NCBI RefSeq assembly: GCF_000710615.1
Contig: NZ_JDTH01000001.1
Location: 1 to 64,000 of the forward strand
Length of the DNA: 64,000 nucleotides
Reading direction: 5' to 3'
Origin: Haladaptatus cibarius D43
Lineage (GTDB): Archaea > Halobacteriota > Halobacteria > Halobacteriales > Haladaptataceae
The notes under the pieces are model-generated. The model was not told the origin of the DNA. It saw only the letters and a list, made by a program, of their open reading frames with translations, and made no database searches. Every line of letters begins with the position of its first letter. The first letter of the stretch is position 1. Made by a program: the position numbers and the translations under genes. Below, piece after piece: positions 49,149 through 64,000 of the stretch.

Positions 49149-50372
49149 TTACTGCTGGAAGTGGTCTTGCAGGATTTCCAGCGTCTTCTCGCGGTCGTCC
49201 CAGTCCACGAACAACGCAACGCTGGTCGCGCTGGTAATCATGTCGTGGATGTTGATGTGGGCATCTGCGACCGGTTGAACGAGTTCGTGGATGATGCCCG
49301 GTTGGTTCGGGAGTTCGCCACCAGTAATCCGAATCACGGCGATTGGGTCATCGACGGAAACGCTGGATAACGAATCCTCGCCGATAACTTCCTGATGAAG
49401 GATATTTTCGGCGCGTTCTGCGAACTCGGTATCGACGTAGAACGTGATACTGTCCATCCCGCTTGCCACGGCGTCGATGTTGATTTCGCTGTCGCCGAGC
49501 GCGGTGGAGAGGTCGGAAAGGATGCCGGGACGGTTTCGAATCGCACGCCCGGCCAGCGTCATGCAGGCAAGCGGCGATTCGCGCATGTCAATTAAGTTTT
49601 CGAACTTGCCGGTGACGCTCGTTCCACCAGCGAGCAGGTCGCCGTGCTGGTAGTGAACGACGCGAACGTGAAGGTCGTCGTCCTTGTACGAAAGGGCCGA
49701 CGGAGCGACGACTTCCGCCCCGCGGAAGGACAGGTTTCTGAGTTCGTCCACCGTAATTTCGCCGACGTTTCGGGCACCTTCCACGACGCTCGGGTCGCCG
49801 GTCATGACGCCCTCCACGTCGGTCACGATGACGACTTCGTCGGCGTCCATGTAGGTTCCGAGCATTACGGCGGTCGTGTCGCTTCCGCCGCGTCCAAGGG
49901 TGGTGACGCCGCCCTCCTCGTTTTCGGCGAGGAAGCCCGTGATAACCGGAACCGTTCCGTCCAACTCGCTGGCGAGTTCGGCGGCGCGCTCTCTGGTTTT
50001 CTCGGCGTTCACTTCGCCGCGCGCGTCAGTGACGATGGGCCACTCATCCCGGCCCGGTTCGACAAAGAGTGCATCCACCCCGCGCGCGGAAAGGGCGGCT
50101 TTGAGCATTCGAACGCTCGTTCGCTCGCCCATGCTGACGATTTCCGCGCGGTCGGGTTCGTCCGCGTCGAATTTGATTTCGTCCAGCAGTTCGTCGGTGG
50201 TGTTACCCATCGCGCTGGCGACGACGGCGATTTCGTGTCCCGCCTCTACTGCGGCGGCGACGGAGTCTGCGGCCCGGTTGATGCGGTCACCGCTTCCGAG
50301 GCTCGTGCCTCCGAACTTGGCGACTACGCGCACCGAACCACCATCCGTGGTCGGCGATTCATGCGCAGGCAT
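49149..50372 (-). CDS. lysC: Aspartate kinase
   Basis: 407 aa; phosphorylates aspartate as the first step to lysine, threonine and methionine. KFGGTS is at residues 19-24, followed by SMGERTSVRML, LGRGGSDTTAVMLG and two ACT domains at the C terminus (residues about 270-407), the usual site of feedback control. Slightly shorter than E. coli LysC (449). Confidence 0.95.
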   Translation of the reverse strand: MPAHESPTTDGGSVRVVAKFGGTSLGSGDRINRAADSVAAAVEAGHEIAVVASAMGNTTDELLDEIKFDADEPDRAEIVSMGERTSVRMLKAALSARGVDALFVEPGRDEWPIVTDARGEVNAEKTRERAAELASELDGTVPVITGFLAENEEGGVTTLGRGGSDTTAVMLGTYMDADEVVIVTDVEGVMTGDPSVVEGARNVGEITVDELRNLSFRGAEVVAPSALSYKDDDLHVRVVHYQHGDLLAGGTSVTGKFENLIDMRESPLACMTLAGRAIRNRPGILSDLSTALGDSEINIDAVASGMDSITFYVDTEFAERAENILHQEVIGEDSLSSVSVDDPIAVIRITGGELPNQPGIIHELVQPVADAHINIHDMITSATSVALFVDWDDREKTLEILQDHFQQ

Positions 50373-50486
50373 AGCAACGGCGGCAAGATAACTGCTTTCA
50401 TGTCCGGAATTTCTGCCAGTCGCTCGCGTCAGTCACAAGCGCGATGAGAAATTCCGGAAAAGAACGAATAGTACGAACAGGGATGG

Positions 50487-52178
50487 TCAGTACGGCGAAA
50501 TCATCACGCTCGCAAGGTCAGTATCGTCGTTGGAGTCAGTAACTCTGAGTTCGACCATCATCGCTCCGTCGGTCGGTACAGTCACACGAATCGACCGCCC
50601 GGACTCGTCGTATCGACCGTCGCCATTCGTGTTCCATTCGTATCGGAGGTCATGTCCACTCGAACAGCACGCATCGAGGCAGACGGTATCCCCTGGAGAG
50701 AAGTTCTCGGTAGCAGGATCTGGCGTCACCTCGATACATGCCTCGGGTGTCTTCTTGTCGTCCGGTTCGTCGTCCGTTGGAAGACAGTCGCCTCGCTCCG
50801 GTCGCTCGGAAGAGGGTTCAAGGACGAAGAAGTTGGCGTAGTAGGCGTATTTGTAGTCGAGCGTCGCGCCACCGGGATACGTCGCGGTGTACAATTTTCC
50901 GTCCGACACGACGGGCGTTCCGGCGGCGGGTGTGTCGGTCGGCGACGTTTCGAGGTCGTCGCTATCGAGCAAGTACGTCCACGTTCTATCGCCAGTTTCG
51001 GCGTCGATGGCGTGGACGACTGCTCGGCCATCCGATGGATTCCGTTCCGGAACGTACTGCCCGCCGACGTATACGGTTCCGCCCGCCGCAACCGGGCTGC
51101 TGAGATGGCGTCCGTGAACCCACGTCGTCCAAACAGTCGCTCCAGTCTTTGCATCGAGTGCCCTCACCAGCGATTCGTCGTCCTCGGATTGAACGAGGAA
51201 GACGTGGTCGTCAGTGACGGCTGGCCGACCGTCCCAACCGTTAGCGCCATCCGATTCGTACATCCATTCGGACGTGCCGGAATCCGCCAGTCGGGCTTCG
51301 ATAGTAACGCGGTCGTCGTCTCCGACTATGGACTCTGTACGGGTGTAGTACACCAAGTCATCGTTGATCGCCGGAGTACCGAGTATTTCGTCTGCTGGGG
51401 TGACACGCCATTGCGTTGCTCCATCGTCCGCATCCAACGCGACCCCGTCGCTGGTAAAGACGGTTCCATCCACGTGAGCCAGCGCATCACCGACATCGTC
51501 TGCAGTATTGTTTATGCCGGGAGCTTTCCAGATAGTATCGCCACTCTCGGAGTCGAGTGCATACGTTGCATTGCGATTCGAGGTGAATATCCTGTCGTCG
51601 ATGACCGCTGGAGGTGACCAGACGGAATGATCCGTTCGTGTCCATCTCTCCTCCCCGGTAGTGGCGTCAAGGGCGTAGAAACCGCTGTCATCGGGGGACG
51701 AGGCTTCGGGCGAGCCGGTGGCGAAGTAGATAGTGTCGTCGGTCACCGCGGGAGTCTTCAGGTTCGGGAAATCGTTTCGAATCCATCGTCGAGTACCCGT
51801 TTCAGGGTCGTGTGCGCTGACGTATCCGTCAACCTCTCCGGGGGTGTTGTTTGTCACTACCGAGAGAAACACAGTTTCGTCGCTGACGATTGGCTCGACG
51901 TGGAACATGCCCCCATCCAAATCCATCGTCCAGTCGGTTTCAGGATAGGGCGTTGGACCACGTTCGTCGATAGCGCCCGTCCGTTGCGGGCCAGAACGTG
52001 GCCCAGTCCACAGCATACCCCGTGTTTCGTCGTTCGAGTCATCCTCGGATAGCCCGTCGTTTTCATTTTGGATAGCGGAGGTGTTTCCGTAGCCAACGAT
52101 GCTCATCGTGACGCCGACCGTTTTCAGAAACGTTCGGCGATTGTTTCCGACGTCCCAAGTGTGTGATTTCTCACTCAT
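50487..52178 (-). CDS. Tat-exported PQQ-type beta-propeller protein
   Basis: 563 aa. A twin-arginine signal (NNRRTFLKTVGVTMSIVG, Arg14-Arg15) is followed by repeated blades of the PQQ/YncE type: AHDPETGTRRWIRNDFP, ALDATTGEERWTRTDH, ALDSESGDTIWKAPG, ALDAKTGATVWTTW, AIDAETGDRTWTYL. A C-terminal PKD-like domain (about residues 475-563) starts CIEVTPDPATENFSPGD and has LRYEWNTNGDGRYDESG. It lacks PQQ-dehydrogenase active-site signs. A surface protein for binding or scaffolding, by inference. Confidence 0.9.
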   Translation of the reverse strand: MSEKSHTWDVGNNRRTFLKTVGVTMSIVGYGNTSAIQNENDGLSEDDSNDETRGMLWTGPRSGPQRTGAIDERGPTPYPETDWTMDLDGGMFHVEPIVSDETVFLSVVTNNTPGEVDGYVSAHDPETGTRRWIRNDFPNLKTPAVTDDTIYFATGSPEASSPDDSGFYALDATTGEERWTRTDHSVWSPPAVIDDRIFTSNRNATYALDSESGDTIWKAPGINNTADDVGDALAHVDGTVFTSDGVALDADDGATQWRVTPADEILGTPAINDDLVYYTRTESIVGDDDRVTIEARLADSGTSEWMYESDGANGWDGRPAVTDDHVFLVQSEDDESLVRALDAKTGATVWTTWVHGRHLSSPVAAGGTVYVGGQYVPERNPSDGRAVVHAIDAETGDRTWTYLLDSDDLETSPTDTPAAGTPVVSDGKLYTATYPGGATLDYKYAYYANFFVLEPSSERPERGDCLPTDDEPDDKKTPEACIEVTPDPATENFSPGDTVCLDACCSSGHDLRYEWNTNGDGRYDESGRSIRVTVPTDGAMMVELRVTDSNDDTDLASVMISPY

Positions 52179-52406
52179 GCGTTACGGTTATAAAATCACC
52201 GTTCAGAAGTATTGTTATGAGGTTCCTGAATATCTTGCCACATCTTCAGGCAGTCTATAACAATAATATATTCCACTATTAAATGTAATGTGAACCATAG
52301 AGAAACAGAACGTCGGCAAGCGAACACCTCCGGCACGACAGCATCGAACCACTCGTTGAATGCGCGAATGCACATCGGCGAGAGCCAATCCGGAGGAGAG
52401 GACTGA
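52179..52406. other. Upstream region of the beta-helix protein
   Basis: AT-rich at 52255-52290. A small frame from GTG 52290 to the TGA at 52404-52406, coding for 38 residues, ends exactly where the next gene starts, and GGAGGAG lies 8 nt before the next ATG. It may be a leader peptide or chance; I do not call it a gene. Confidence 0.4.
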
Positions 52407-54731
52407 ATGCCGACATACAACATCGTAGAGCAGGGAGCGGACGATACCGGAGACACGGCTATCGACCCCGTGCTTAGCGACCTCGCAGGGGACGACACGA
52501 CCATCATCTTCGAACCGGGCACGTACAGGCTCAACGAACTCGTCGTTCCCGATGGAACAGACGACTTCGAACTCATCGCACCGGACGGGGCGCGTCTCGT
52601 CCCCGGGCGGTCGGGCGACAGTATTCGCTGGATTGACGTGTACTCCAACGGTTTCGTGCTGGATGGCTTCGAACTCGATATGCGAGATGTCGAGGTGCCG
52701 CCGTTCGTGCGGATGAACCCGGAAGCGGGAAACTGGGAACTCAGACGGCTCATCACTCGCGGGGAAGTGAGAGCGGCAACCGATACGAACGTCGGGTCAG
52801 GCACCTCGGGCGACGCACGGACGTATTTTCGGTTGTCCGTCAGCGAGGGGACACGCGGACTCTTACAGGACTGCTATTTCCATGAAGGGTCATGTGAACC
52901 AACAGAGGCAAGCAATCGCCGTGCGGTACTGGTCGAATCCGGAAGCGGTGCGCTCACCTTCAACCGATGTTGGTTCGAATCGTGGGGCGAAAACACGGTG
53001 TACGCGAAGAAACCGGAAGGGAAATTAAAAATATTGAACTGTTTCGTTCGTAATTCACAGAACGGACTTCGACTCGGTGGCAACACGGAGGTTCGCAACT
53101 GCGTCTCCATCAAAAACGCAGAGCATCCACGGCAAGCATGGTCGAACGGGTCGCTCCAGCGCGGTGTGAACGCGGAAGCCACCACCCTCACGGCTTCGGA
53201 GAGAGGAATCAACAGCTACGACGGAACGCTCACCGTCGCGGACAGCGACTTCTACCATCGCTACGTAGACAGCAGTTGCGGTGGGGCTATTACGGCACCA
53301 GCCCCATGCCAGCGACTCGACATCCAAAACGTTAGAATAAGTTATATCTCTACGAAGCAGCACGATGCCATCTACACGCTGAACGGGAGGATGAACAACG
53401 GAACACCGCTGAATCTCGAATATCTTCAACTTGAGAACGTTCACGTTCGCAACGACCACGGCTCACAATACGGCATTTCGATCGAACAAGTTCCGGACAC
53501 GTGGGGAACCGTGTCGGGAGTGCTCGGCGGTACCGGCGCGCAGACCGATTCGGAGTACGTGCGGGAGCGAATGACCGTCAACGGAAATCCGACCGCACCG
53601 GATACGACACCGCCGCTTCCGACCCCTTCACCGCTCGGCGAGATTCCGATGCAGGACGCACAGCTCATTCGAATCGATAACGACGGAAACAGTGCACCGA
53701 CGACGTACCAGATTACCGCCGGGGAATACGTCCTCCCAGCGGCGAACGACGGTGCAACGATGACCATGTCGTGGGGACCGAACGGAGAGCCGAGACGGCC
53801 ACCCAATTCGGCGGTTGCCACTGGAACGGTTCCGGCAGGAAAATCGTACGCCTTCTACGTGACGGGTGGCATCGTCTCGACGGAAGCGGACGGCCCTGCA
53901 ACGTGGACCGTGGATGGAGACGTATACGAGCCAGGAAGCGAGGAAGCACTGCTCGCGAATACCATCGTCAACGGCACATGGCAGTGGAAGCAGGCAGAAT
54001 CGGTCGTGCAACCGAACGGTGTCGTCATTGCAAAGCCGGTGTCGTTTAACGGCGGTGAACCGGTGCACGTCCGTCTCCGGAACGTCGCTGACGGGAACTA
54101 CGAGTATCGACTCGAAGAGTGGGAGTATCAGGATAGTGGACACGTTAGCGAGACGTTTCACACCCTCGCCGCCGAGCAGGGTGAACGCGAGTTACCACTC
54201 GGAGACGGGTCAGTGTATCGGGTGAAATCCGGGCGAGAAACCGTTTCTAGCGAGGAGACGACCGTTTCGTTGAACTCCTTTTTCGATCAACTGCCGGTAG
54301 TTTTGGCACAGTCACAGACGTTCAATGGAAGCGACCCAATCGTCACACGACTGTCAAACGTCTCGACTCAGTCATTCGGAGTCGTGTGTCAAGAAGAAGA
54401 AGAGAACGGAGCCCACACGAACGAGACGGTCGGTTACATCGCGCTCCAACAAGCGGCGGGAGAACTCAACGAGCAATCGTTCGAAGTGCAACGAACTGGA
54501 GACTCGATTACCGACGAATGGACTCGTCTCTCGTTCGAACAGCAGTACGATGACCCGAAGTTCGTTGCCGACATGCAGACGTTCGACGGGCAAGATACGG
54601 CGAATCTCCGGTATCGAAACCTGACCGGAACAGGCGTCGACATCCGAGTGCAAGAGGAGCAAAGCGCCGATACCGAAACGGCCCACACTACGGAAGCAAT
54701 CGGATACGCCGTTTTTGAAGGTTCCATCTGA
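52407..54731 (+). CDS. Right-handed beta-helix protein with C-terminal lectin-like repeats
   Basis: 774 aa. Residues 1-375 form a pectate-lyase-like right-handed beta-helix: a YNIVEQGADDTGD start, then repeated short strands such as NCFVRNSQNGLRLGGNTEVR. After a Pro/Thr linker (about 390-420) comes a domain that may be a beta-sandwich, then three related repeats of about 85 residues, each having a VxxAxxxTFNGxDPxxxRLxNV and a TNETVGYxAL-like core (about residues 545, 630 and 700). No signal peptide is visible, although similar haloarchaeal proteins are usually Tat-exported. It may be phage-tail or surface-fibre related. Confidence 0.8.
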   Translation: MPTYNIVEQGADDTGDTAIDPVLSDLAGDDTTIIFEPGTYRLNELVVPDGTDDFELIAPDGARLVPGRSGDSIRWIDVYSNGFVLDGFELDMRDVEVPPFVRMNPEAGNWELRRLITRGEVRAATDTNVGSGTSGDARTYFRLSVSEGTRGLLQDCYFHEGSCEPTEASNRRAVLVESGSGALTFNRCWFESWGENTVYAKKPEGKLKILNCFVRNSQNGLRLGGNTEVRNCVSIKNAEHPRQAWSNGSLQRGVNAEATTLTASERGINSYDGTLTVADSDFYHRYVDSSCGGAITAPAPCQRLDIQNVRISYISTKQHDAIYTLNGRMNNGTPLNLEYLQLENVHVRNDHGSQYGISIEQVPDTWGTVSGVLGGTGAQTDSEYVRERMTVNGNPTAPDTTPPLPTPSPLGEIPMQDAQLIRIDNDGNSAPTTYQITAGEYVLPAANDGATMTMSWGPNGEPRRPPNSAVATGTVPAGKSYAFYVTGGIVSTEADGPATWTVDGDVYEPGSEEALLANTIVNGTWQWKQAESVVQPNGVVIAKPVSFNGGEPVHVRLRNVADGNYEYRLEEWEYQDSGHVSETFHTLAAEQGERELPLGDGSVYRVKSGRETVSSEETTVSLNSFFDQLPVVLAQSQTFNGSDPIVTRLSNVSTQSFGVVCQEEEENGAHTNETVGYIALQQAAGELNEQSFEVQRTGDSITDEWTRLSFEQQYDDPKFVADMQTFDGQDTANLRYRNLTGTGVDIRVQEEQSADTETAHTTEAIGYAVFEGSI

Positions 54732-54768
54732 TACCGACCGAAGACGGTATCCAACTTCGGCGAACCGC

Positions 54769-55814
54769 TCACTCAGTCGCGTCGATTTCTGTGGATTCGT
54801 CCGTGGGTTGGTGTTCGGGTTCAAATTGTTCGTCGAGCATCTCTTCCGATTTTTCGAGTTCTTCGAGGGGGTCGAACGAAACCGATCCATCTCCACCGGT
54901 GTACTCGCAAGCGACCCACTCGGGAATCGTGAGGACGCCGTTCATCTTCCGGATTCAAATCCGTTTGACCAGTACGTCCTCGATAACTGAGCCGTTCAAC
55001 TGCAAGTCGATGAGGCCGTCCATGACGTAGGCCATGTTGTACGGAAAAACGTCGCCTTCTCCGGCGAAAGTGGCACCCGCAAACACCGGAACGAAGCGAC
55101 CTTTGCACACGTCCGCTCGCACGTCTTTTACGAAATCGTAGGCTTGCACCGGTTGCACCAGCGTTCCGAACTCCGTCAGCGAGTCGATGACGACAATTCC
55201 CGAGTCGCTCATCGACAGCGATTCGAGGCAGTTGTCGAGTTTGTTTTGGAGTTCGCTCGTATCACTGGGGTCGCGCACGGTGGTCGTCGCGGAACTGGTG
55301 ACGCGATGAAGAAACTGGTTCCAATCGTCCATTCGGGCGAACATCCGTTTTCGGTCGCTAACCCGGTAGGTAAAGCAGTCGATGATGTGCAGTTGTCCCG
55401 TTTCGAGGTACGGCAGAACGTTCCACTCCAAGGAGAGAAACTGTTCGACCACGGAGACGGCGGTTCGGTGAAACTAACAACAATCGCGGGGTCATCGCGT
55501 TCGAGCGCCCGCCAGACGAGTTCCGACTGAATCGCACTGTCCCGCGTGCCGCTTTCGCCCGACACGAGGACGAAGGAGTTGCGTGGCAACCCCTGTGGAA
55601 GACTGTTATCCAATCCCGAAACACCCGTGGCAATCTGTCGAAATCCGTGATATTCGGTGAACACCCGGTCGTTTTCCGCCATCTCGTCCCGGCACATCTC
55701 TGAGCAAAATTCGTAGGTGTCCGCCTCGTACTGTGACAGAACAGACTCCTCGGGACAGGGAAGGCGACAGAAATCACACCGATTTCGCTCATTTCCGCCG
55801 GGTATGTTACTCAT
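54769..55814 (-). pseudogene. RAD55-type ATPase, broken by a frameshift and a stop
   Basis: Two frames make one protein family member. From 55814 (MSNIPGGNERNRCDFCRLPC) the product has a zinc-finger-like part, then GVSGLDNSLPQGLPRNSFVLVSGESGT. At about 55460 the frame changes by one nucleotide: TEPP is followed in the next frame by VSVVEQFLSLEWNVLPYLE and DSGIVVIDSLTEFGTLVQP. At 54955-54957 an in-frame TGA lies where an arginine (CGA) is expected, after LVKRI and before IRKMNGVL. The tail runs on in the same frame to 54769. Related haloarchaeal proteins are KaiC/RAD55-like. Confidence 0.85.
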
Positions 55815-55885
55815 GAACAAACGTTGGCACGCGAACGAAATGAAGCTACTCCCACTTTTAATGCGCGAGAGTGAGAACACCACCT

Positions 55886-56278
55886 ATGCGCGTTCGAGAT
55901 GCAGTGGAAGCGGACGGGGGACGCCTCGCGGCACTCGCGGACGTTCCGACCGAAGTGATGGCCGACGTGGTACACGACCGAACCGTCTCCGTGGCCGAAT
56001 CCGACGAGAAAATCGAGGGGTTCGTCGGCTTCGAGGCCGACGAGGAGACGGTTCACGTCACGCACCTGTTCGGTGCGAAAACGGCCTGTGAGCGCCTCAT
56101 CGACGAACCGATTCGGTTCGCCGAACGTGAATCGATGCCGGTCGAAATTCTTCTCCCAGAACCGGAAGAAGACACCGCTGAGGTTGCAGAGAACGCCGGA
56201 TTCGAGGAGTCCGAATCCGGGCCATGGTTCGACGGCCAGCGAACCCGTCGGTTTCGACTGGAGAATCCGGAGAGGTGA
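55886..56278 (+). CDS. GNAT-like acetyltransferase, conserved haloarchaeal protein
   Basis: 130 aa: starts MRVRDAVEADGGRLAALADV as in many GNAT proteins, then FVGFEADEETVHVTHLFG, RFAERESMPVEILLPEPEED and ENAGFEESESGPWFDG. It lacks an obvious RxxGxG/A loop, so it is a divergent or inactive member. Start at 55886 rather than 55871. Substrate unknown. Confidence 0.72.
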   Translation: MRVRDAVEADGGRLAALADVPTEVMADVVHDRTVSVAESDEKIEGFVGFEADEETVHVTHLFGAKTACERLIDEPIRFAERESMPVEILLPEPEEDTAEVAENAGFEESESGPWFDGQRTRRFRLENPER

Positions 56279-56363
56279 GTCGCGTTCGCACGGTAGAGAC
56301 AACCACAGTACACGCCCACTTTCGAAACGTATTTTAATCTCACCGGGTAACCACGATATGCGT

Positions 56364-56438
56364 GTCCGGGTTGGGGTAGTGGACTATCCTCCAGCCTTGT
56401 GGAGGCTGGGACGCGGGTTCGATTCTCGCACCTGGACC
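56364..56438 (+). tRNA. tRNA-His (anticodon GTG)
   Basis: Acceptor GTCCGGG/CCTGGAC, D-arm TTGGGGTAGTGGACTATCC, anticodon arm CAGCC-TTGTGGA-GGCTG with anticodon GTG, T-arm GCGGG-TTCGATT-CTCGC, discriminator C at 56438 as expected for tRNA-His. The nucleotide before is T, so the extra G(-1) must be added after transcription. TTTTAATC at 56331-56338 is a good TATA box. Confidence 0.97.
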
Positions 56439-56458
56439 TTTCTTCCGTACATAACTCC

Positions 56459-56484
56459 GTGAGCACCGCCTAGCGTGTGCTCAC
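56459..56484 (+). terminator. Hairpin after tRNA-His
   Basis: GTGAGCAC/GTGCTCAC, a perfect 8-bp stem with a 10-nt loop, 21 nt after the tRNA end. Confidence 0.55.
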
Positions 56485-56544
56485 GTTGATGTCACTATAC
56501 CGTTCTACCAAAATCCACTGATGAAACGACAGATGCTTCGAAAA

Positions 56545-56775
56545 TTAGAGCGGTTCGTCGCGCTGGCTGGCAGGGTCGTGCTGGTCATCGACCGCCTGCG
56601 TGAACAAGTCGTCGTCCAGTTGGTCGTCGGCGTCGTCAACCGCCCCGTAGGACGAGATACCGAGCGAGAGCAGGTCTTCGACCGCTTTCTCTCGGTTCAG
56701 GAAATCGCCTTGGTCAACGAGACGGTCGATGTCGCTGTCGATACGGTCAGGTATCGCCACTTCGAATTTTGCCAT
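56545..56775 (-). CDS. Small ribbon-helix-helix-like protein
   Basis: 76 aa: first strand AKFEVAIPDRIDSDI, helix DRLVDQGDFLNREKAVEDLLSLG, then a disordered acidic end (DDADDQLDDD, DDQHDPASQRDEPL). The strand-helix-helix order fits the MetJ/Arc/CopG type of DNA-binding dimers. It has no toxin or other partner next to it. A haloarchaeal DUF of this type is common. Confidence 0.7.
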   Translation of the reverse strand: MAKFEVAIPDRIDSDIDRLVDQGDFLNREKAVEDLLSLGISSYGAVDDADDQLDDDLFTQAVDDQHDPASQRDEPL

Positions 56776-56877
56776 ACATCCACTCCGTACCAGAGACGGA
56801 TTAAATAGCCGGATTCGATGCGAGCGTCAGCGACCGGTGAAAATATGTGAGTTCGAGTGCGTCAGAACACCGACTGC

Positions 56878-57552
56878 CTACTCCTCGGCGGAGTATTCGA
56901 CGGTTATCTTGCTGACACCGTAGATGTCGTCCCAGTCTTTGTCCTCGTCCATCAGCAGAATCAGTAGCGTAACCTCACCGTCTGCTCCTGCTTCTTCGAG
57001 GCCACCGGGCCGAACGTCGATGACGTATTCACCGTTTTCGTCTTGGGAAACCTCTTGTGTGCGCTCGATGAGCGTGCCGTCGGTGCGAGCGAAACGCGAC
57101 TCGTTGGTGAGCGACCCGTCAGCGTAGACGAGGAAGTACGGTTCCCCCCGCACAGTGCCGTGTTCCGACGGGTCGATGTTGTCCATCACCGTGTCAGCGT
57201 TGATCTGCAGATTGAAGTTCGAATAGCCGCCACTGCTCGCTTCAGTCGTGTCCACGAGTTCGATATTCTGGATTCGAGGTTCGTCGCGGTCTTCCTCGTC
57301 CATGTTGTTCTGGAGCGGCGTGTTCGGAGAGGTCGGTTCCGACCACGATTCAGAGTCCGATTCGGTGGTCATCGTCGTCGTGGTGGTTGTCGTCGTAGAA
57401 GAGTCCGATGTTTCCGTCGCGGTCTGTTCGGTCGGGGAAGTGCCCGTAGTCGTCGTTTCCGTCGTCGTAGTGTCGGACGAGCCGAAGCCGCTACAGCCAG
57501 CCAACAGGACGATGAAAACGACCGCTATCGTGAGAAGTCCGTTGCGTTTCAT
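56878..57552 (-). CDS. Lipoprotein of unknown function
   Basis: 224 aa. Signal sequence KRNGLLTIAVVFIVLLAGC with a lipobox cysteine (Cys20); a Thr/Ser-rich linker to about residue 75 (SDTTTTETTTTGTSPTEQ), likely glycosylated as in other haloarchaeal surface proteins; then a beta domain of about 140 residues (IQNIELVDTTEASSGGYSNF, DGSLTNESRFARTDG, ISKITVEYSAEE-like end). The binding partner is unknown. Confidence 0.85.
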   Translation of the reverse strand: MKRNGLLTIAVVFIVLLAGCSGFGSSDTTTTETTTTGTSPTEQTATETSDSSTTTTTTTTMTTESDSESWSEPTSPNTPLQNNMDEEDRDEPRIQNIELVDTTEASSGGYSNFNLQINADTVMDNIDPSEHGTVRGEPYFLVYADGSLTNESRFARTDGTLIERTQEVSQDENGEYVIDVRPGGLEEAGADGEVTLLILLMDEDKDWDDIYGVSKITVEYSAEE

Positions 57553-57712
57553 CCATCCTCGTCGTAACGCCGTGGTGGGATTATTATGGACTCCGTAACC
57601 CGCGGATTATGCGTTTCGTAAGCATCAGGAAAAACCATTTGAATCTGAGCAGTAAGCGCACAAAATATAGAAATACAGTTACAGAGGTTCGTTCTCAGTC
57701 CAGAAAAACCGC
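57553..57712. other. Intergenic, nothing recognised
   Basis: 160 nt between the lipoprotein and the SRAP gene; A/T-rich in the middle; the lipoprotein promoter lies here. Confidence 0.4.
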
Positions 57713-58393
57713 TTAGCTAAAATCTCCCAACCCAGTCTGTGCATCCTCCTCCGCCATCACTTCCTCTACCAACTCCGGCGAATCGTTTTTCGGACTGTTG
57801 ACCCGCTTCGAGACGGGATAGGCTCGCATCTCGTTGCCGGGGAACGTATCCAGCACGGATTCCAGTTCACTCTCGTCACCGTGAAGCCACCGTGATTCGT
57901 CCGCTTCCGCCAGAATCACGGGCATTCGATGGTGAATCTCGCCGACGACGTCGTTCGGTTCGGTCGTGACCACCGTGAACGAGGTTTTCTGCTCGCCGTT
58001 CTGCCACGGTTCCCAGAGTCCGGCCATCGCAAACGGCGTTCCGTCCGCTCTGGTCATTCGGTAGGGCTGTTTTCCGGTCGCCGTCTTCTTCCAGTCGTAG
58101 AAGCCATCCACGAGGACGAGACAGCGGCGTTCGCGGTAGGCATCCCGAAACGTCGGTTTCTCCGCCAGCGTCTCCGCACGAGCGTTGATGTGACCGCCGT
58201 CGAACTCGTTGGCCCAGTGGGGAACGAACCCCCACGTCGGAAAGCGCATTTCGTCCGGTGCGTCGTTTCGGACGACCGGATGGTCTTGGCCCGGCGCGAC
58301 GTTGTATCGGGGTCGAATCGGGCCGGCCGGTACTGCGTCGAATCGCTCCGTGAGGTCGGCTTCGGGAGCGAACAGTGAGAGACGACCACACAT
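57713..58393 (-). CDS. SOS response-associated peptidase (SRAP/HMCES family)
   Basis: 226 aa. The catalytic Cys2 is exposed after loss of Met1 (MCGRLSLF), with RPRYNVAPGQ, GFVPHWANEF, INARAETLAEKPTFRDA, VLVDGFYDW and the final EIHHRMPVIL motif with catalytic His. Family members crosslink to abasic sites in single-stranded DNA and protect them. Start is forced to 58393 by the Cys2 requirement; the frame open upstream is not used. Confidence 0.94.
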   Translation of the reverse strand: MCGRLSLFAPEADLTERFDAVPAGPIRPRYNVAPGQDHPVVRNDAPDEMRFPTWGFVPHWANEFDGGHINARAETLAEKPTFRDAYRERRCLVLVDGFYDWKKTATGKQPYRMTRADGTPFAMAGLWEPWQNGEQKTSFTVVTTEPNDVVGEIHHRMPVILAEADESRWLHGDESELESVLDTFPGNEMRAYPVSKRVNSPKNDSPELVEEVMAEEDAQTGLGDFS

Positions 58394-58452
58394 GGAAGAA
58401 CGTTCGCTCGGAACGGAGTTAAACACGACGTTAGGAGTCAACAGGAGGACAG

Positions 58453-59619
58453 TTAGGATGGCTGTTCGCGGGGCGTCAGTTCTTCTTCCGAGCGACCACT
58501 GCTTTTGATGATGTCGAACGCCGTCATCAGGTCGGTTCGGGAGATGATACCCGCAATCTCCCCCTCGGCGTCGATAACGGGGAGGCGACCGATTCCGTGC
58601 TGTTGAATCGTTTCGAGGGCGTCCAAGGCATCGCTGTCGGCAGGAATCGTCTTCACGTCGGTAGACATCACTTCCCGAACTCTGTAGGCGTCGCGTTCGA
58701 CCTGTCGAACGCTCCGCGCGTCGTCTAGGGTTATCATCCCGACGAGTTCGCCGTCGTCAACAACCGGATAGCCGGTGTGGCGCTGTTGAAACATCATTTC
58801 CAGCAGGTCGGCGATGGAGGTGTCCGACGAGACGGTTTCTAAGTCCGCTTCGGCGGTCATCACGTCGCGGACGAGAACGCCGCTGAAAGCCGCCGAGAGG
58901 ACGGTTTGCTGGGCTTCGCCGGTCGCACCGATGTAGATGAAAAAGGCGATACCGATGAGGATGATGTTGCCAGCGAACAGGCCGAACAGGCCGAGGAGGA
59001 TGGCAAACAGTTTTCCGACTTCGGCGGCGGTTTGCGTTGCTTCGGCAAACGGACGGGTTCGAGCAAGCAGTGCGCGCAAGACTCGCCCACCATCCATCGG
59101 GAAACCGGGCAGAAGGTTGAACACAGCGAGGACGATGTTCATGAGCGCGAGGTAGCCGACGACGAACCGAAGCGCTTCCATCTGCACCGGAATGGCGAAC
59201 AGCGCGAGATAGGAACCGACGCCAAGAACGATGCTGACGACCGGCCCCGCGATTGCGATGAGCAGTTCTTCGAGCCAGTTTTCCGGTTGGTCGGTAAGGC
59301 GGGCGATACCCCCGAAAATCCACAGCGTGATGGATTCTATCGGGAAACCGAAACGCATTGCGACGACCGAATGGCCGAGTTCGTGGAGGACGACGCCAGC
59401 AAACAGGCCGACTGCGGCGGCGGTACCGACGACCCACGGCATCATTCCGGTCGTCAGCGGTTCGGTTGTCAGTCCGAGTCCCAACAGTGGATTCATTAGT
59501 TCGACCAAATCACCGACTTGCGTCCCGATGAGCCACGCGAACACGGGCAGGACGAGCAGGAAGGTGAGGTCGAGTTTAATCGGGATGCCGAACGCGCTCC
59601 CGATTCTGAAGCTACGCAT
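58453..59619 (-). CDS. Site-2 protease (M50) with CBS domains
   Basis: 388-aa intramembrane metalloprotease: HELGHS at residues 79-84 and the second zinc ligand in LLPGFPMDGGRVL, between six or so membrane helices; two CBS modules (about residues 255-375) at the C terminus, likely sensing nucleotides. Start at 59619 (MRSFRIGSAFGIPI) with a GTTTAAG box at 59644-59650, 27 nt before. It is divergent from the TnpB-like gene, with 90 nt in between. Confidence 0.93.
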   Translation of the reverse strand: MRSFRIGSAFGIPIKLDLTFLLVLPVFAWLIGTQVGDLVELMNPLLGLGLTTEPLTTGMMPWVVGTAAAVGLFAGVVLHELGHSVVAMRFGFPIESITLWIFGGIARLTDQPENWLEELLIAIAGPVVSIVLGVGSYLALFAIPVQMEALRFVVGYLALMNIVLAVFNLLPGFPMDGGRVLRALLARTRPFAEATQTAAEVGKLFAILLGLFGLFAGNIILIGIAFFIYIGATGEAQQTVLSAAFSGVLVRDVMTAEADLETVSSDTSIADLLEMMFQQRHTGYPVVDDGELVGMITLDDARSVRQVERDAYRVREVMSTDVKTIPADSDALDALETIQQHGIGRLPVIDAEGEIAGIISRTDLMTAFDIIKSSGRSEEELTPREQPS

Positions 59620-59709
59620 GAGAGTATCTAGCGTCGGAAGCGTCTTAAACTTCTTCGCGCTCAAATCGTCTCCGAAGTATTCAAGGGGGCGCTCTGGGGA
59701 GAAAATAGC
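59620..59709. promoter_or_regulatory. Divergent promoter between protease and TnpB-like gene
   Basis: 90 nt. Contains GTTTAAG (minus, 59644-59650) for the protease and GGGGAG with a GTG start 8 nt on for the TnpB-like gene. No transposon inverted end or palindromic TnpA hairpin was seen here. Confidence 0.6.
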
Positions 59710-60951
59710 GTGAGCGGCCCTGAATATTTCAAACGGACAGCAGTAACTCGCCTCGCGGTCGATTCGACTGACCACGAGCACCTGCTAGCGATGGTACGCG
59801 AATGGAAGCGAGGGTGCCAAATCGCGGTTAACACCGCGTGGGGGAACTGCCATACGCGCAGTGAGGTACAAAAACTCGCATACGATGTCCTCCGTGAGCG
59901 AACCGACCTCGGCAGTCAGCACGCTGTCCTTGCCACCCATCGCGCCGCGGAAGCGATAAAGGGCGTTCTCGATAGGAACGACGGCACGACCGAAAACGCC
60001 GAAAAGCCGACTTTTACCAGTCCGACAGTCGTCTACGACACGCGAACGATGACGCTGTTCGACGACAAGGCAGTCAGTTTGACGACGACCGAAGAGCGCG
60101 TTCACTGCGACCTCATTTTTCCTGATGGAAGCTATCAGACGCAGTATTTGAACGATGACCGGTGGAAACCGGCAAAGAGCAACCTCCGCTATCGTGACGG
60201 CCAGTTCGATTTGCATCTCGGCTTTCGGGCAGAGCGACCGGAAATCGCCGCGTCGGACGAAGTCGAATCGAGCGAAAGCGACGCCACGGTTCTCGGGGTC
60301 GCACTCGGCGTCGAAAACGTGGCAGTGACGAGTACGGCCCGATTCTTTTCGGGCGAAGAACTCCACCATCGTCACCGTGAATTTTCGGAACTCCGTACAG
60401 ACCTCCACGAAACGGACACCCGGAGCGCGCTCCGAACGCTTCGACAGGCGGGGGACAGAAACGATAATTTCGCGCGAGATACCCTCCACACTGTCGCGGG
60501 TGGAATTGTCGAGGAAGCCGAAACGCACGGTTGTTCGGTCATCGCATTCGGCGAACTCGAAGCGGTCGGAGAACTGCTTCCTGAGGCCGACGAGTTCCAC
60601 GCGTGGGCGTTGGAGCGACTGTTCGATTTCGTCGCCTACCGGGCAGAAGAGCGCGGAATCAGGGTCGCACAGGTGAATCCGGAGTACACCAGTCAGCGAT
60701 GTACGTCCTGCGGGTTCACGCACCCGCAGAATCGCGATGTCGAACGAACTCATTTCGAATGTTTGAAATGTGGCAACGAGGCGAACGACCACTACAATGC
60801 GGCGAAAAACGTCGGATTTCGATGCATTCGCCGCGGGCCACTCTCGTCGCGGGGCGTCGGCGCGGAATACTGTGCGCTCGGGTCGGGCCGAGTCACACCG
60901 GACGGGGATTTCGTTCCGAACGAGGAACTCGTGGAAGTGCAAAAACCTTAG
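59710..60951 (+). CDS. TnpB-like protein with inactivated RuvC site
   Basis: 413 aa; start GTG 59710 with GGGGAG 8 nt upstream. Related to the IS1341-type TnpB (RNA-guided DNA nuclease of IS200/IS605 elements) of haloarchaea across the whole length: SPTVVYDTRTMTLFDDKA, TVLGVALGVENVAVTSTARF, VIAFGELEAV, CTSCGFTHPQ and CLKCGNEANDHYNAAKN. The zinc-finger cysteines 331, 334, 351 and 354 are intact. The three RuvC acids are not: Ala198 stands where Asp is required (active type VLGVDLGxEN), Gly281 for Glu (AFEEL), and His361 for the last Asp (HADYNAA). Cleavage is therefore unlikely. Codon use matches neighbours, with no frameshift, suggesting a kept function. Confidence 0.9.
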   Translation: MSGPEYFKRTAVTRLAVDSTDHEHLLAMVREWKRGCQIAVNTAWGNCHTRSEVQKLAYDVLRERTDLGSQHAVLATHRAAEAIKGVLDRNDGTTENAEKPTFTSPTVVYDTRTMTLFDDKAVSLTTTEERVHCDLIFPDGSYQTQYLNDDRWKPAKSNLRYRDGQFDLHLGFRAERPEIAASDEVESSESDATVLGVALGVENVAVTSTARFFSGEELHHRHREFSELRTDLHETDTRSALRTLRQAGDRNDNFARDTLHTVAGGIVEEAETHGCSVIAFGELEAVGELLPEADEFHAWALERLFDFVAYRAEERGIRVAQVNPEYTSQRCTSCGFTHPQNRDVERTHFECLKCGNEANDHYNAAKNVGFRCIRRGPLSSRGVGAEYCALGSGRVTPDGDFVPNEELVEVQKP

Positions 60952-60975
60952 CCCCTGCCGCGTGAATGGCGGTGT

Positions 60976-61338
60976 ATGGCCGAGCCAATCGTGCGGAACG
61001 GAGACGAGATAGAGTACGAAACAGTCGGGGCCGCAGAAGGAATGGCGAAAGGCGTCCTCATCGGCGACGAACAGGGCGCGCCGAACTTTGCGATTCGGCG
61101 GTTTACCCTCGAATCCGGGGCAGAAGTGCCGGAACACACGAACGAAGTCGAACACGAACAGTACGTGTTGGAAGGCGAGTACACCGTCGGCATCGAAGAC
61201 GAAGAGTACGAAGTCAGTGCTGGCGACTCGCTGCTCATTCCTGCTGGTGTCGTTCACTGGTATCGAAACGAGGGCGACGAATCGGGCGCGTTCCTCTGTG
61301 CAGTGCCGAACGGGGACGACGAAATCAACCTCGTCTAG
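60976..61338 (+). CDS. Cupin-domain protein
   Basis: 120-aa single cupin: motif 1 GAEVPEHTNEVEHEQYVLEGEYTV (His and Glu ligand positions) and motif 2 AGDSLLIPAGVVHWYRNEG. It starts 24 nt after the TnpB-like stop and is on the same strand, so the two are probably co-transcribed. The stop overlaps the convergent small gene by 4 nt. Substrate or metal not defined. Confidence 0.88.
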   Translation: MAEPIVRNGDEIEYETVGAAEGMAKGVLIGDEQGAPNFAIRRFTLESGAEVPEHTNEVEHEQYVLEGEYTVGIEDEEYEVSAGDSLLIPAGVVHWYRNEGDESGAFLCAVPNGDDEINLV

Positions 61339-61511
61339 CGGTGCTCGGAGAGAGAAATCACGGTGTCGATGGACGCAGATACCCACGCTTCTTCTGCTCG
61401 CGTATCGCGCATTCGGATTAGCGGTTGTTCCTTATCCGAACCGTCCTCTATCTCCAAGATAATCTTTTCGTCGAACCGCTGTGGAAGTGTTTCTTCTTGC
61501 GTGCCGTCCAT
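61335..61511 (-). CDS. Small conserved-type acidic protein
   Basis: 58 aa: MDGTQEETLPQRFDEKIILE, then IEDGSDKEQPL, RDTRAEEAWVSASIDTVISL. The end part with 'W-V-x-(S/A)-D/S-T-V' followed by a short tail is like the haloarchaeal DUF7331-type small proteins, from memory. It overlaps the cupin stop region on the opposite strand. No function known. Confidence 0.6.
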   Translation of the reverse strand: MDGTQEETLPQRFDEKIILEIEDGSDKEQPLIRMRDTRAEEAWVSASIDTVISLSEHR

Positions 61512-61770
61512 TACGTTCTGTCACCTTTGAGGCGCTACTGTGCGCTGACTGGCGCTAACGGATGGACTGGCTTTGTTATGAGCCGGTTGCCGAAACAGTA
61601 TTTTGGGAATAACACCCGTGATCGAGCGTTATTCTATCATTGACGATTTTCAATGGCCGATTTCAGGAGAGCCGATACCACTTGACACGGCTGGAAAACG
61701 GCGTCACTGAACGACGGCGCGATTCGGCCAGTCCGAATCGCTAAAATAGCTTCAGCGTGTAGCACTCGCC
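61512..61770. other. Intergenic, nothing recognised
   Basis: 259 nt before the helicase gene. No tRNA, repeat or clear TATA box apart from A/T-rich GAATAACACC and GTTATTCTATCATT at about 61610-61645. Confidence 0.4.
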
Positions 61771-63825
61771 GTGTCGAAGCAGGCTCAGCAGGTGGAGACG
61801 CTCTTCTGCCACGAAACGGACCGCGGCTATCGAGTCGTCGCCCAGCAGGGCGGAAAGCGGCTGTTCCGGGCAATTCTCGAACTTAAGGAAACGAGTGCCG
61901 GGCCGCGTCCGGCGCGATTTATGCAGAAAGACGGGTCGAGTGAAAAGCCACGCAATCCGGGCGAGTTCATCGAACTCGCCCGGGGTGCAGACCGCATTCG
62001 GATTTCACAGCAGACCTCGCCTAATGGCCGAGCTGAGCTGAAGGAAATGCTGTCGGGGTATCAACTCGATGCCACGGCTGTTCGAACCTGCCGACTCTGT
62101 GCGAACAAGGGAGAATATTCGCCAATCAGCGGTGAGACGGCGATCGATACGGGTGAAGAGTACATCTGTCCCGACTGCGCGACGGAGGAGTTGGAGCGCG
62201 AACTCTCCTTCAGGGGGAACCTAACTGGGTCTGCTCAAGACAGACTCGAAGAACTCCTGCTGGAAGTGCAAGATTTACAGCGAATCACGAACTTGCTCAA
62301 GGGGCGACTCGATCCGGATTTGACGAAGTTCGACGAAATCAGCGCGAACGTTGAAGATGTGGACTTGAAACGAGTCGATTCGCTGAATCTCCATCCCGGT
62401 GTGCAAAATCTACTCGAATCGCGATTCGATACCCTGCTTCCCGTGCAGAGTCTCGCAGTGCAGAACGGACTGCTCGACGGCGACGACCAACTCGTCGTCA
62501 GCGCGACCGCGACCGGGAAAACCCTCGTAGGCGAGATGACCGGTCTCGACCGCGTGCTGAACGGGCAGGGCAAAATGCTCTTTCTCGTGCCACTCGTCGC
62601 GCTGGCGAACCAGAAACACGAGGATTTCAAAGACGAGTACGGCGACCTCGCAAACGTCACTATCCGGGTCGGTGCGAGTCGCGTGCGCGATGACGGAAAC
62701 AGGTTCGACCCGAGCGCAGACATTATCGTCGGCACCTACGAGGGTATCGACCACGCGCTCCGAACCGGGCGGGATTTGGGCGACATCGGAACCGTCGTCA
62801 TCGACGAAGTTCACACCTTGCAAGAGCAAGAACGCGGGCATCGACTCGACGGCCTCATCTCGCGGTTGAAATACTACTGCGAGGAGCGCGCGAAGCAAAA
62901 ACAGAACTACGGCGGCGCGCAGTGGGTGTACCTCTCCGCGACGGTTGGCAATCCACGCGACCTCGGGCAGGCGCTCGAAGCGAATCTCGTGGAGTTCGAA
63001 GAACGACCGGTCGCGCTGGAGCGTCACGTCACCTTCGCCAGCGGGCAGGAAAAACCGAACATCGAGAACAAACTCGTCAAGCGCGAGTTCGACCGCGAAT
63101 CATCGAAGGGCTATCGCGGCCAGACCATCATCTTCACCAACTCGCGGCGACGTTGTCACGAGATTTCACGAAAGTTGGAGTACAACGCCGCGCCGTACCA
63201 CGCCGGACTGGATTACGGACGGCGGAAGAAGGTCGAGCGCATGTTCGCCGAACAGGAGCTTTCGGCCGTCGTGACGACCGCGGCACTGGCAGCGGGTGTC
63301 GATTTTCCTGCTTCGCAGGTCATCTTCGACTCGCTTGCGATGGGTATCGAATGGCTCACCGTACAGGAGTTCCACCAGATGCTCGGACGCGCCGGTCGCC
63401 CGGACTACCACGACCGCGGGAAAGTGTACGTCCTCGTGGAACCCGACGGAAGCTATCACAACAGCATGGAGATGTCGGAGGACGAAGTGGCGTTCAAACT
63501 CCTCAAAGGCGAGATGGAAGACGTTCGCACGCTCTACGACGAAAGCGCCGCAATCGAGGAGACGCTGGCAAACGTCACCGTCGGCGGCAGAGCCGCAAAA
63601 CGCCTGAACGACCGCATGATCGGCGACGTGCCGACGAAGCACGCACTCGGCAAACTGCTAGAATACGAGTTCATCGACGGCTTTTCGCCGACGCACCTCG
63701 GGCGCGTCATCACGAGTCACTTCCTTGCACCCGACGAAGCCTTCCGAATCGTGGACGGCATCAGGAAAGACAGACATCCGTTCGACATCGTTGCCGACCT
63801 CGAACTGTTCGATGATGACGAGTAA
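61771..63825 (+). CDS. Archaeal Ski2-like helicase (ASH-Ski2 type)
   Basis: 684 aa; GTG start at 61771. An N-terminal domain of about 190 residues holds a zinc finger CRLCANKGEYSPISGET...CPDC (about residues 110-140). The helicase core follows: SATATGKTLVGEM (motif I, about residue 248), DEVHTLQEQERGHRLDG (II), YLSATVGNP (III), and QMLGRAGRPDYHDRGK (VI). This layout is the archaeal-specific ASH-Ski2 family, which in Thermococcales works with the 5'-3' exonuclease aRNase J in RNA decay. Gene followed directly by tRNA-Pro. Confidence 0.92.
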   Translation: MSKQAQQVETLFCHETDRGYRVVAQQGGKRLFRAILELKETSAGPRPARFMQKDGSSEKPRNPGEFIELARGADRIRISQQTSPNGRAELKEMLSGYQLDATAVRTCRLCANKGEYSPISGETAIDTGEEYICPDCATEELERELSFRGNLTGSAQDRLEELLLEVQDLQRITNLLKGRLDPDLTKFDEISANVEDVDLKRVDSLNLHPGVQNLLESRFDTLLPVQSLAVQNGLLDGDDQLVVSATATGKTLVGEMTGLDRVLNGQGKMLFLVPLVALANQKHEDFKDEYGDLANVTIRVGASRVRDDGNRFDPSADIIVGTYEGIDHALRTGRDLGDIGTVVIDEVHTLQEQERGHRLDGLISRLKYYCEERAKQKQNYGGAQWVYLSATVGNPRDLGQALEANLVEFEERPVALERHVTFASGQEKPNIENKLVKREFDRESSKGYRGQTIIFTNSRRRCHEISRKLEYNAAPYHAGLDYGRRKKVERMFAEQELSAVVTTAALAAGVDFPASQVIFDSLAMGIEWLTVQEFHQMLGRAGRPDYHDRGKVYVLVEPDGSYHNSMEMSEDEVAFKLLKGEMEDVRTLYDESAAIEETLANVTVGGRAAKRLNDRMIGDVPTKHALGKLLEYEFIDGFSPTHLGRVITSHFLAPDEAFRIVDGIRKDRHPFDIVADLELFDDDE

Positions 63826-63881
63826 CAACCCCGAGCGCGAAACGAAACGCTTTACAGTGCAAGTGCGCTACTCGTGAGTAC

Positions 63882-63954
63882 GGGATCGTGGGGTAGCTTG
63901 GTATCCTTTCGGCCTTGGGTGCCGATAACCCCGGTTCAAATCCGGGCGATCCCA
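63882..63954 (+). tRNA. tRNA-Pro (anticodon TGG)
   Basis: Acceptor GGGATCG/CGATCCC, D-arm TGGGGTAGCTTGGTATCC, anticodon arm TCGGC-CTTGGGT-GCCGA with anticodon TGG, T-arm CCCGG-TTCAAAT-CCGGG, discriminator A. A TTTACA box lies at about 63850. CCA is not encoded. Confidence 0.97.
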
Positions 63955-64000
63955 TTCTTGATTTCTTAGTCCGTGAGCGTCGCTAGCCGTCTGATTTTGG

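Follow-up and report, generated by a model that had tools for sequence, protein, structure and literature searches.

In the window, a stretch of 64,000 nucleotides from the archaeon Haladaptatus cibarius D43 (contig NZ_JDTH01000001.1, positions 1 to 64,000), an open reading frame at 59710-60951, lying between a metalloprotease gene and a cupin gene, encodes a homologue of the RNA-guided nuclease TnpB. A first-pass annotation, made from the letters of the sequence, had noticed that all three catalytic acids of the RuvC domain are replaced in this protein, while the frame has full length and the zinc-finger cysteines are intact, and had proposed a domesticated archaeal counterpart of the bacterial RNA-guided repressors known as TldR or, alternatively, a gene with a different role, for example in RNA binding. 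The frame is open throughout (Table 1), matches the Pfam family Cas12f1-like_TNB (E 2.8e-18) and scores 117.9 bits against the NCBIfam model guided_TnpB, which has a cut-off of 100. AlphaFold2, run with a 50-sequence alignment, predicted a complete WED/REC/RuvC/zinc-ribbon fold with a predicted local distance difference test score of 83.7 and a predicted template modelling score (pTM) of 0.60, and the best matches of this model in the PDB, found with Foldseek, were Cas12f and TnpB ribonucleoprotein complexes. The architecture of the TnpB superfamily (WED/REC, RuvC, zinc ribbon) is found both in the sequence and in the predicted fold.

We compared the protein with 61 other haloarchaeal TnpBs that are 32-53% identical to it. 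All 61 carry Asp, Glu and Asp at the positions where the window protein has Ala198, Gly281 and His361, and in a family profile alignment these columns pair with the catalytic acids (VLGVDLG, EDL and ANADYN) of solved Cas12f structures. The Asp/Glu/Asp triad required of an active RNA-guided TnpB nuclease is thus replaced by Ala/Gly/His. Cysteines 331, 334, 351 and 354 of the zinc ribbon are kept in the 61 other TnpBs and in all 27 orthologues described below. Codon use, which had been called host-like, is roughly so, with a GC content at third codon positions of 0.652 that lies a little under that of the neighbouring genes (0.69-0.73).

Orthologues were found in 27 of the 28 Haladaptataceae genomes examined (best match 63-100% identity), the missing one being that of a genome only 62% complete; outside the family, the best matches elsewhere in the order are about 54% identical. 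The 27 orthologues form a single clade (support 100/100) on a long stem (0.48). The genera placed under Haladaptataceae at NCBI are Haladaptatus, Halorussus and Halomicrococcus; nine of the orthologues come from Haladaptatus, and the remainder presumably belong to Halorussus (n = 17) and Halomicrococcus (n = 1). When the three positions were mapped across the clade, the change from Glu to Gly at position 281 was common to all 27 orthologues. Position 198 is Ala or Ser in the nine Haladaptatus genomes and Asp in the other 18, and position 361 is His in four orthologues, all of them from Haladaptatus (G000, G003, G004 and G001), and Asp in 23. From this graded distribution it follows that the loss began with the Glu, continued with the first Asp and ended with the third. 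No orthologue retains all three acids, and the proposed inactivation holds against the possibility that the window gene is a damaged copy of one intact in its close relatives. The residue changes represent more than chance, because Gly281 is invariant in the 27 orthologues and the pairwise ratio of nonsynonymous to synonymous substitution rates (dN/dS) among them lies at 0.07-0.15, on a par with or below that of the neighbouring metalloprotease gene.

In active relatives the 3′ end of the gene contains a guide-RNA (omega-RNA) hairpin, which extends beyond the stop codon and ends in GTTGAC. We built a covariance model, R1, from the 3′ elements of 25 active relatives. Of 20 relatives held out from the model, R1 detected the omega-RNA at the 3′ end in 19 (E < 3e-5 for 18 of them and 0.015 for the weakest), including TnpBs of 32-36% protein identity, which are far more distant than the orthologues. 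The same model found no omega-RNA at the 3′ ends of the orthologues (0/27, of which 23 were rescanned without filters) and none over the whole genome of the window (best E 0.78). Sequence after the stop codon is not conserved beyond the closest relatives. Over codons 361-402, the ratio of observed to expected synonymous change is 0.65 in active genes, the lowest of their codon windows, versus 0.93 and 1.15 in the orthologues; the orthologues have lost the constraint that active genes owe to the omega-RNA at their synonymous sites. An omega-RNA overlapping the gene end, as in active TnpBs, was thus looked for and not found. Rfam was uninformative here, since it gave no match at the orthologues but also missed the active positive controls; a candidate match to RF02656 in the whole genome was a chance match only. 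The 3′ ends of one haloarchaeal TnpB group (L062-L102) carry an omega-RNA that matches no Rfam 15 family, though its terminal hairpin varies compensatorily.

These results bear directly on the RNA-guided part of the first-pass proposal. In TldRs the guide RNA is still encoded beside the gene (PMC13418256), and no such RNA was detected beside any of the 27 orthologues or elsewhere in the genome, so that this part of the proposal was not borne out. The alternative raised in the first-pass annotation, a different role such as RNA binding, may still apply. The main rival to our interpretation is nonetheless a TldR-like RNA-guided repressor whose guide RNA either has diverged too far to be recognised or comes from another place in the genome. 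Bacteria do have dead TnpBs with guide RNAs (PMC13418256), and the TnpB fold and the RNA-binding N lobe are retained. Against it, R1 misses the 27 loci and the whole genome yet recognises much more distant relatives, nothing is conserved 3′ of the stop codon, the synonymous footprint is gone, and R229, Q233, H241 and R287, which are conserved in active TnpBs, have drifted in the orthologues. We consider this rival unlikely.

The gene also lacks the mobility of active TnpBs, for which multiple copies, TnpA or a variable position would be signs. It is a single copy at a fixed locus, and the genome (99.97% complete) contains neither a Y1 TnpA nor, by Pfam, a second TnpB. In 25 of the 26 other orthologous loci, the dead tnpB adjoins at least one of the M50-CBS and cupin genes, and the order is that seen in the window; in G014 the M50 side alone was found beside it. 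Other families include many genomes in which the M50 and cupin genes lie side by side and divergent, 13-124 nucleotides from start to start, an arrangement that represents the empty site. The flanks of the dead tnpB are ancestral neighbours, and the spacer to the cupin gene is variable among Halorussus-type genomes. In several of these (L048, L053, L055 and L056) it grows to 1-2 kb and forms a variable insertion site. At the Halomicrococcus-type locus L044 (G009), the cupin side is kept, the M50 neighbour is lost and a ParA/MinD-like gene lies upstream. No relative with the motifs of the family was found in viral contigs, nothing above 60% identity in plasmid and phage records, and no CRISPR repeat array at 50000-64000; PADLOC matches reflect Cas12 homology only. 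A tRNA gene (63882-63954) lies downstream of the helicase gene.

Table 1. Coordinates of the dead tnpB, its parts and its surroundings in the window.
Feature	Coordinates	Strand	Basis or remark
M50 metalloprotease with CBS domains, ancestral left neighbour, divergent	58453..59619	-	Pfam; synteny
Conserved promoter-like block	59665..59709	+	Invariant 11-mer AAGTATTCAAG at 59675-59685
Nuclease-dead TnpB paralogue, 413 residues	59710..60951	+	GTG start, TAG stop, frame open throughout
Codon 198 (GCA), Ala replacing RuvC-I Asp	60301..60303	+	Asp in 61/61 other TnpBs
Codon 281 (GGC), Gly replacing RuvC-II Glu	60550..60552	+	Glu in 61/61 other TnpBs
Zinc-ribbon/target-nucleic-acid-binding (TNB) domain, residues 303-368	60616..60813	+	Pfam PF07282
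Codon 361 (CAC), His replacing RuvC-III Asp	60790..60792	+	Asp in 61/61 other TnpBs
C-terminal tail, residues 373-413	60826..60948	+	Conserved as protein; overlaps omega-RNA in active relatives
Spacer, expected place of omega-RNA hairpin and guide	60952..60975	+	No R1 match; similar only in closest relatives
Cupin protein, ancestral right neighbour	60976..61338	+	Pfam Cupin_2
DEAD/Hel308-like helicase, ancestral neighbour	61771..63825	+	Pfam DEAD, Helicase_C; synteny

The retention of a single copy throughout the family, together with a kept RNA-binding lobe, a dead nuclease and no detected omega-RNA of its own, would also fit a protein that serves as a decoy or in immunity and prevents incoming TnpB elements from homing by binding their omega-RNAs or their target sites. 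Many other TnpBs persist in related genomes, however (33 matches in G002 and 20 in G003), and several genomes that keep the dead tnpB have no other TnpB copy, making such a role quite improbable.

The 45 nucleotides upstream of the start codon show an identity of 0.86 and 0.88 among the orthologues versus 0.49-0.79 for three neighbours, the highest of the four genes compared. All 27 orthologues have the 11-mer AAGTATTCAAG, placed 35 or 38 nucleotides ahead of the start codon (35 in the window). The exact extended AAGTATTCAAG site occurs once in the genome of the window, and no second exact copy of the 11-mer that could mark a regulon was found there. This conservation suggests either steady expression or an operator, and we speculate that the protein could bind its own promoter.

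Asp360 and Glu325 are present in all 27 orthologues and are rare or absent in other TnpBs, position 360 being Ala or Gly in the others. Together with Glu282, they raise the question of a protein that is still a nuclease, with one of these acids substituting for those lost. Glu282 is not fixed among the orthologues (Lys in L025 and Asp in L011), the core RuvC-I Asp is Ala or Ser in Haladaptatus regardless of Asp360, the third Asp is His in four genomes and the RuvC region is relaxed. A surviving nuclease is, on this evidence, very improbable indeed, and the inactivation claimed by the first-pass annotation withstands the idea that a neighbouring acid has taken the catalytic place.

The distribution of constraint along the protein differs from that of active TnpBs. 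The ratio of nonsynonymous to synonymous proportions of change (pN/pS) in the RuvC core is 0.25-0.33 in the orthologues versus 0.14-0.18 in active TnpBs, whereas the zinc ribbon (codons 326-372) is tightened, at 0.075-0.132 versus 0.153, as is the C-terminal tail, at 0.083-0.105 versus 0.244. Among positions conserved in active TnpBs, 21 of 26 are retained in the N lobe and 41 of 59 in the RuvC domain plus zinc ribbon. Selection has thus shifted away from the RuvC core and now bears more strongly on the zinc ribbon and the C-terminal tail. A functionless remnant in slow decay, although it would explain the loss of catalytic residues and omega-RNA, is hardly credible with such low dN/dS, frames intact in 27 genomes of three genera, and invariant zinc cysteines and promoter 11-mer. 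At codons 101-120 (60010-60069), the ratio of observed to expected synonymous change is 0.72-0.73 in both orthologue groups versus 1.22 in active TnpBs, which may reflect chance or an internal element.

Together, these comparisons show a single origin, vertical inheritance, immobility, purifying selection, a stepwise loss of the triad and the absence of a recognisable omega-RNA; the description of the gene as a domesticated, nuclease-dead archaeal TnpB is thereby upheld. Sequence comparison shows that a TnpB gene inserted once between the M50 protease and cupin genes in the ancestor of Haladaptataceae. Before the genera split, it lost its RuvC-II Glu, its mobility and its omega-RNA, and inheritance has been vertical since; in Haladaptatus the first Asp went as well, followed in one subclade by the third. 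The protein may now bind nucleic acid without cleaving it, by means of the WED/REC lobe, the zinc ribbon and the C-terminal tail and with no guide RNA of its own; most likely it would regulate the chromosome, and its unusually conserved promoter is a possible target. We judge it probable that this immobilised, vertically inherited gene encodes such a non-cleaving nucleic-acid-binding protein that lacks a guide RNA of its own, likely a regulator. The wider claim, that an archaeal family exapted TnpB as a core protein that binds nucleic acid independently of a guide RNA, turning an RNA-guided machine into a protein-only factor, has in our estimate an even chance of being right. Several points weigh against our main interpretation. 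An RNA partner that has diverged strongly or is encoded in trans may escape a sequence search. Halorussus-type orthologues retain two acids and all orthologues have gained Asp360 and Glu325, and certainty about the loss of activity is therefore confined to Haladaptatus. The pTM of the predicted model is only moderate, and the role as regulator is one that we infer.

To our knowledge, the dead TnpBs described so far retained guide RNAs and became bacterial RNA-guided repressors. The present gene offers a lineage-wide archaeal case with a readable order of loss, in which the guide RNA was lost as well with the protein still under selection, and it opens to experiment the question of what a TnpB protein does once it has no guide. 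It also shows that the automatic label 'RNA-guided endonuclease TnpB family protein', whose NCBIfam cut-off is passed by this reading frame, can mislabel a core gene. A search for literature on Haladaptatus or Halorussus with TnpB returned no paper on this gene; an earlier mention in surveys of TnpB diversity is possible.

Compared to known systems, the gene shares domain order and zinc ribbon with the active haloarchaeal IS200/IS605 (IS1341-type) TnpBs that have a 3′ omega-RNA (sotRNA; PMC12558985), with 46-54% identity to the nearest groups; these differ by their Asp/Glu/Asp triad, their 3′ omega-RNA and their multiple mobile copies. Cas12f proteins (8dzj, 8j12 and 9nzq) give the best structural and profile matches, but their triad is intact and no repeat array lies near the window gene. 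Cas12m (PMC10442227) is a type V relative that represses without cutting; it depends on a CRISPR RNA, and its RuvC site is non-canonical but not wholly lost. TldRs (PMC13418256) have their guide RNA encoded alongside and are associated with a new partner gene (fliC, csrA and others), whereas the window gene has an undetectable guide RNA, ancestral neighbours and an archaeal host. Although the window gene is not classed as a TldR, because the adjacent guide RNA that defines the group was sought and not found, TldR is the closest known kind, sharing with it a TnpB homologue with an inactivated RuvC site, no transposon partner, and vertical or host maintenance.
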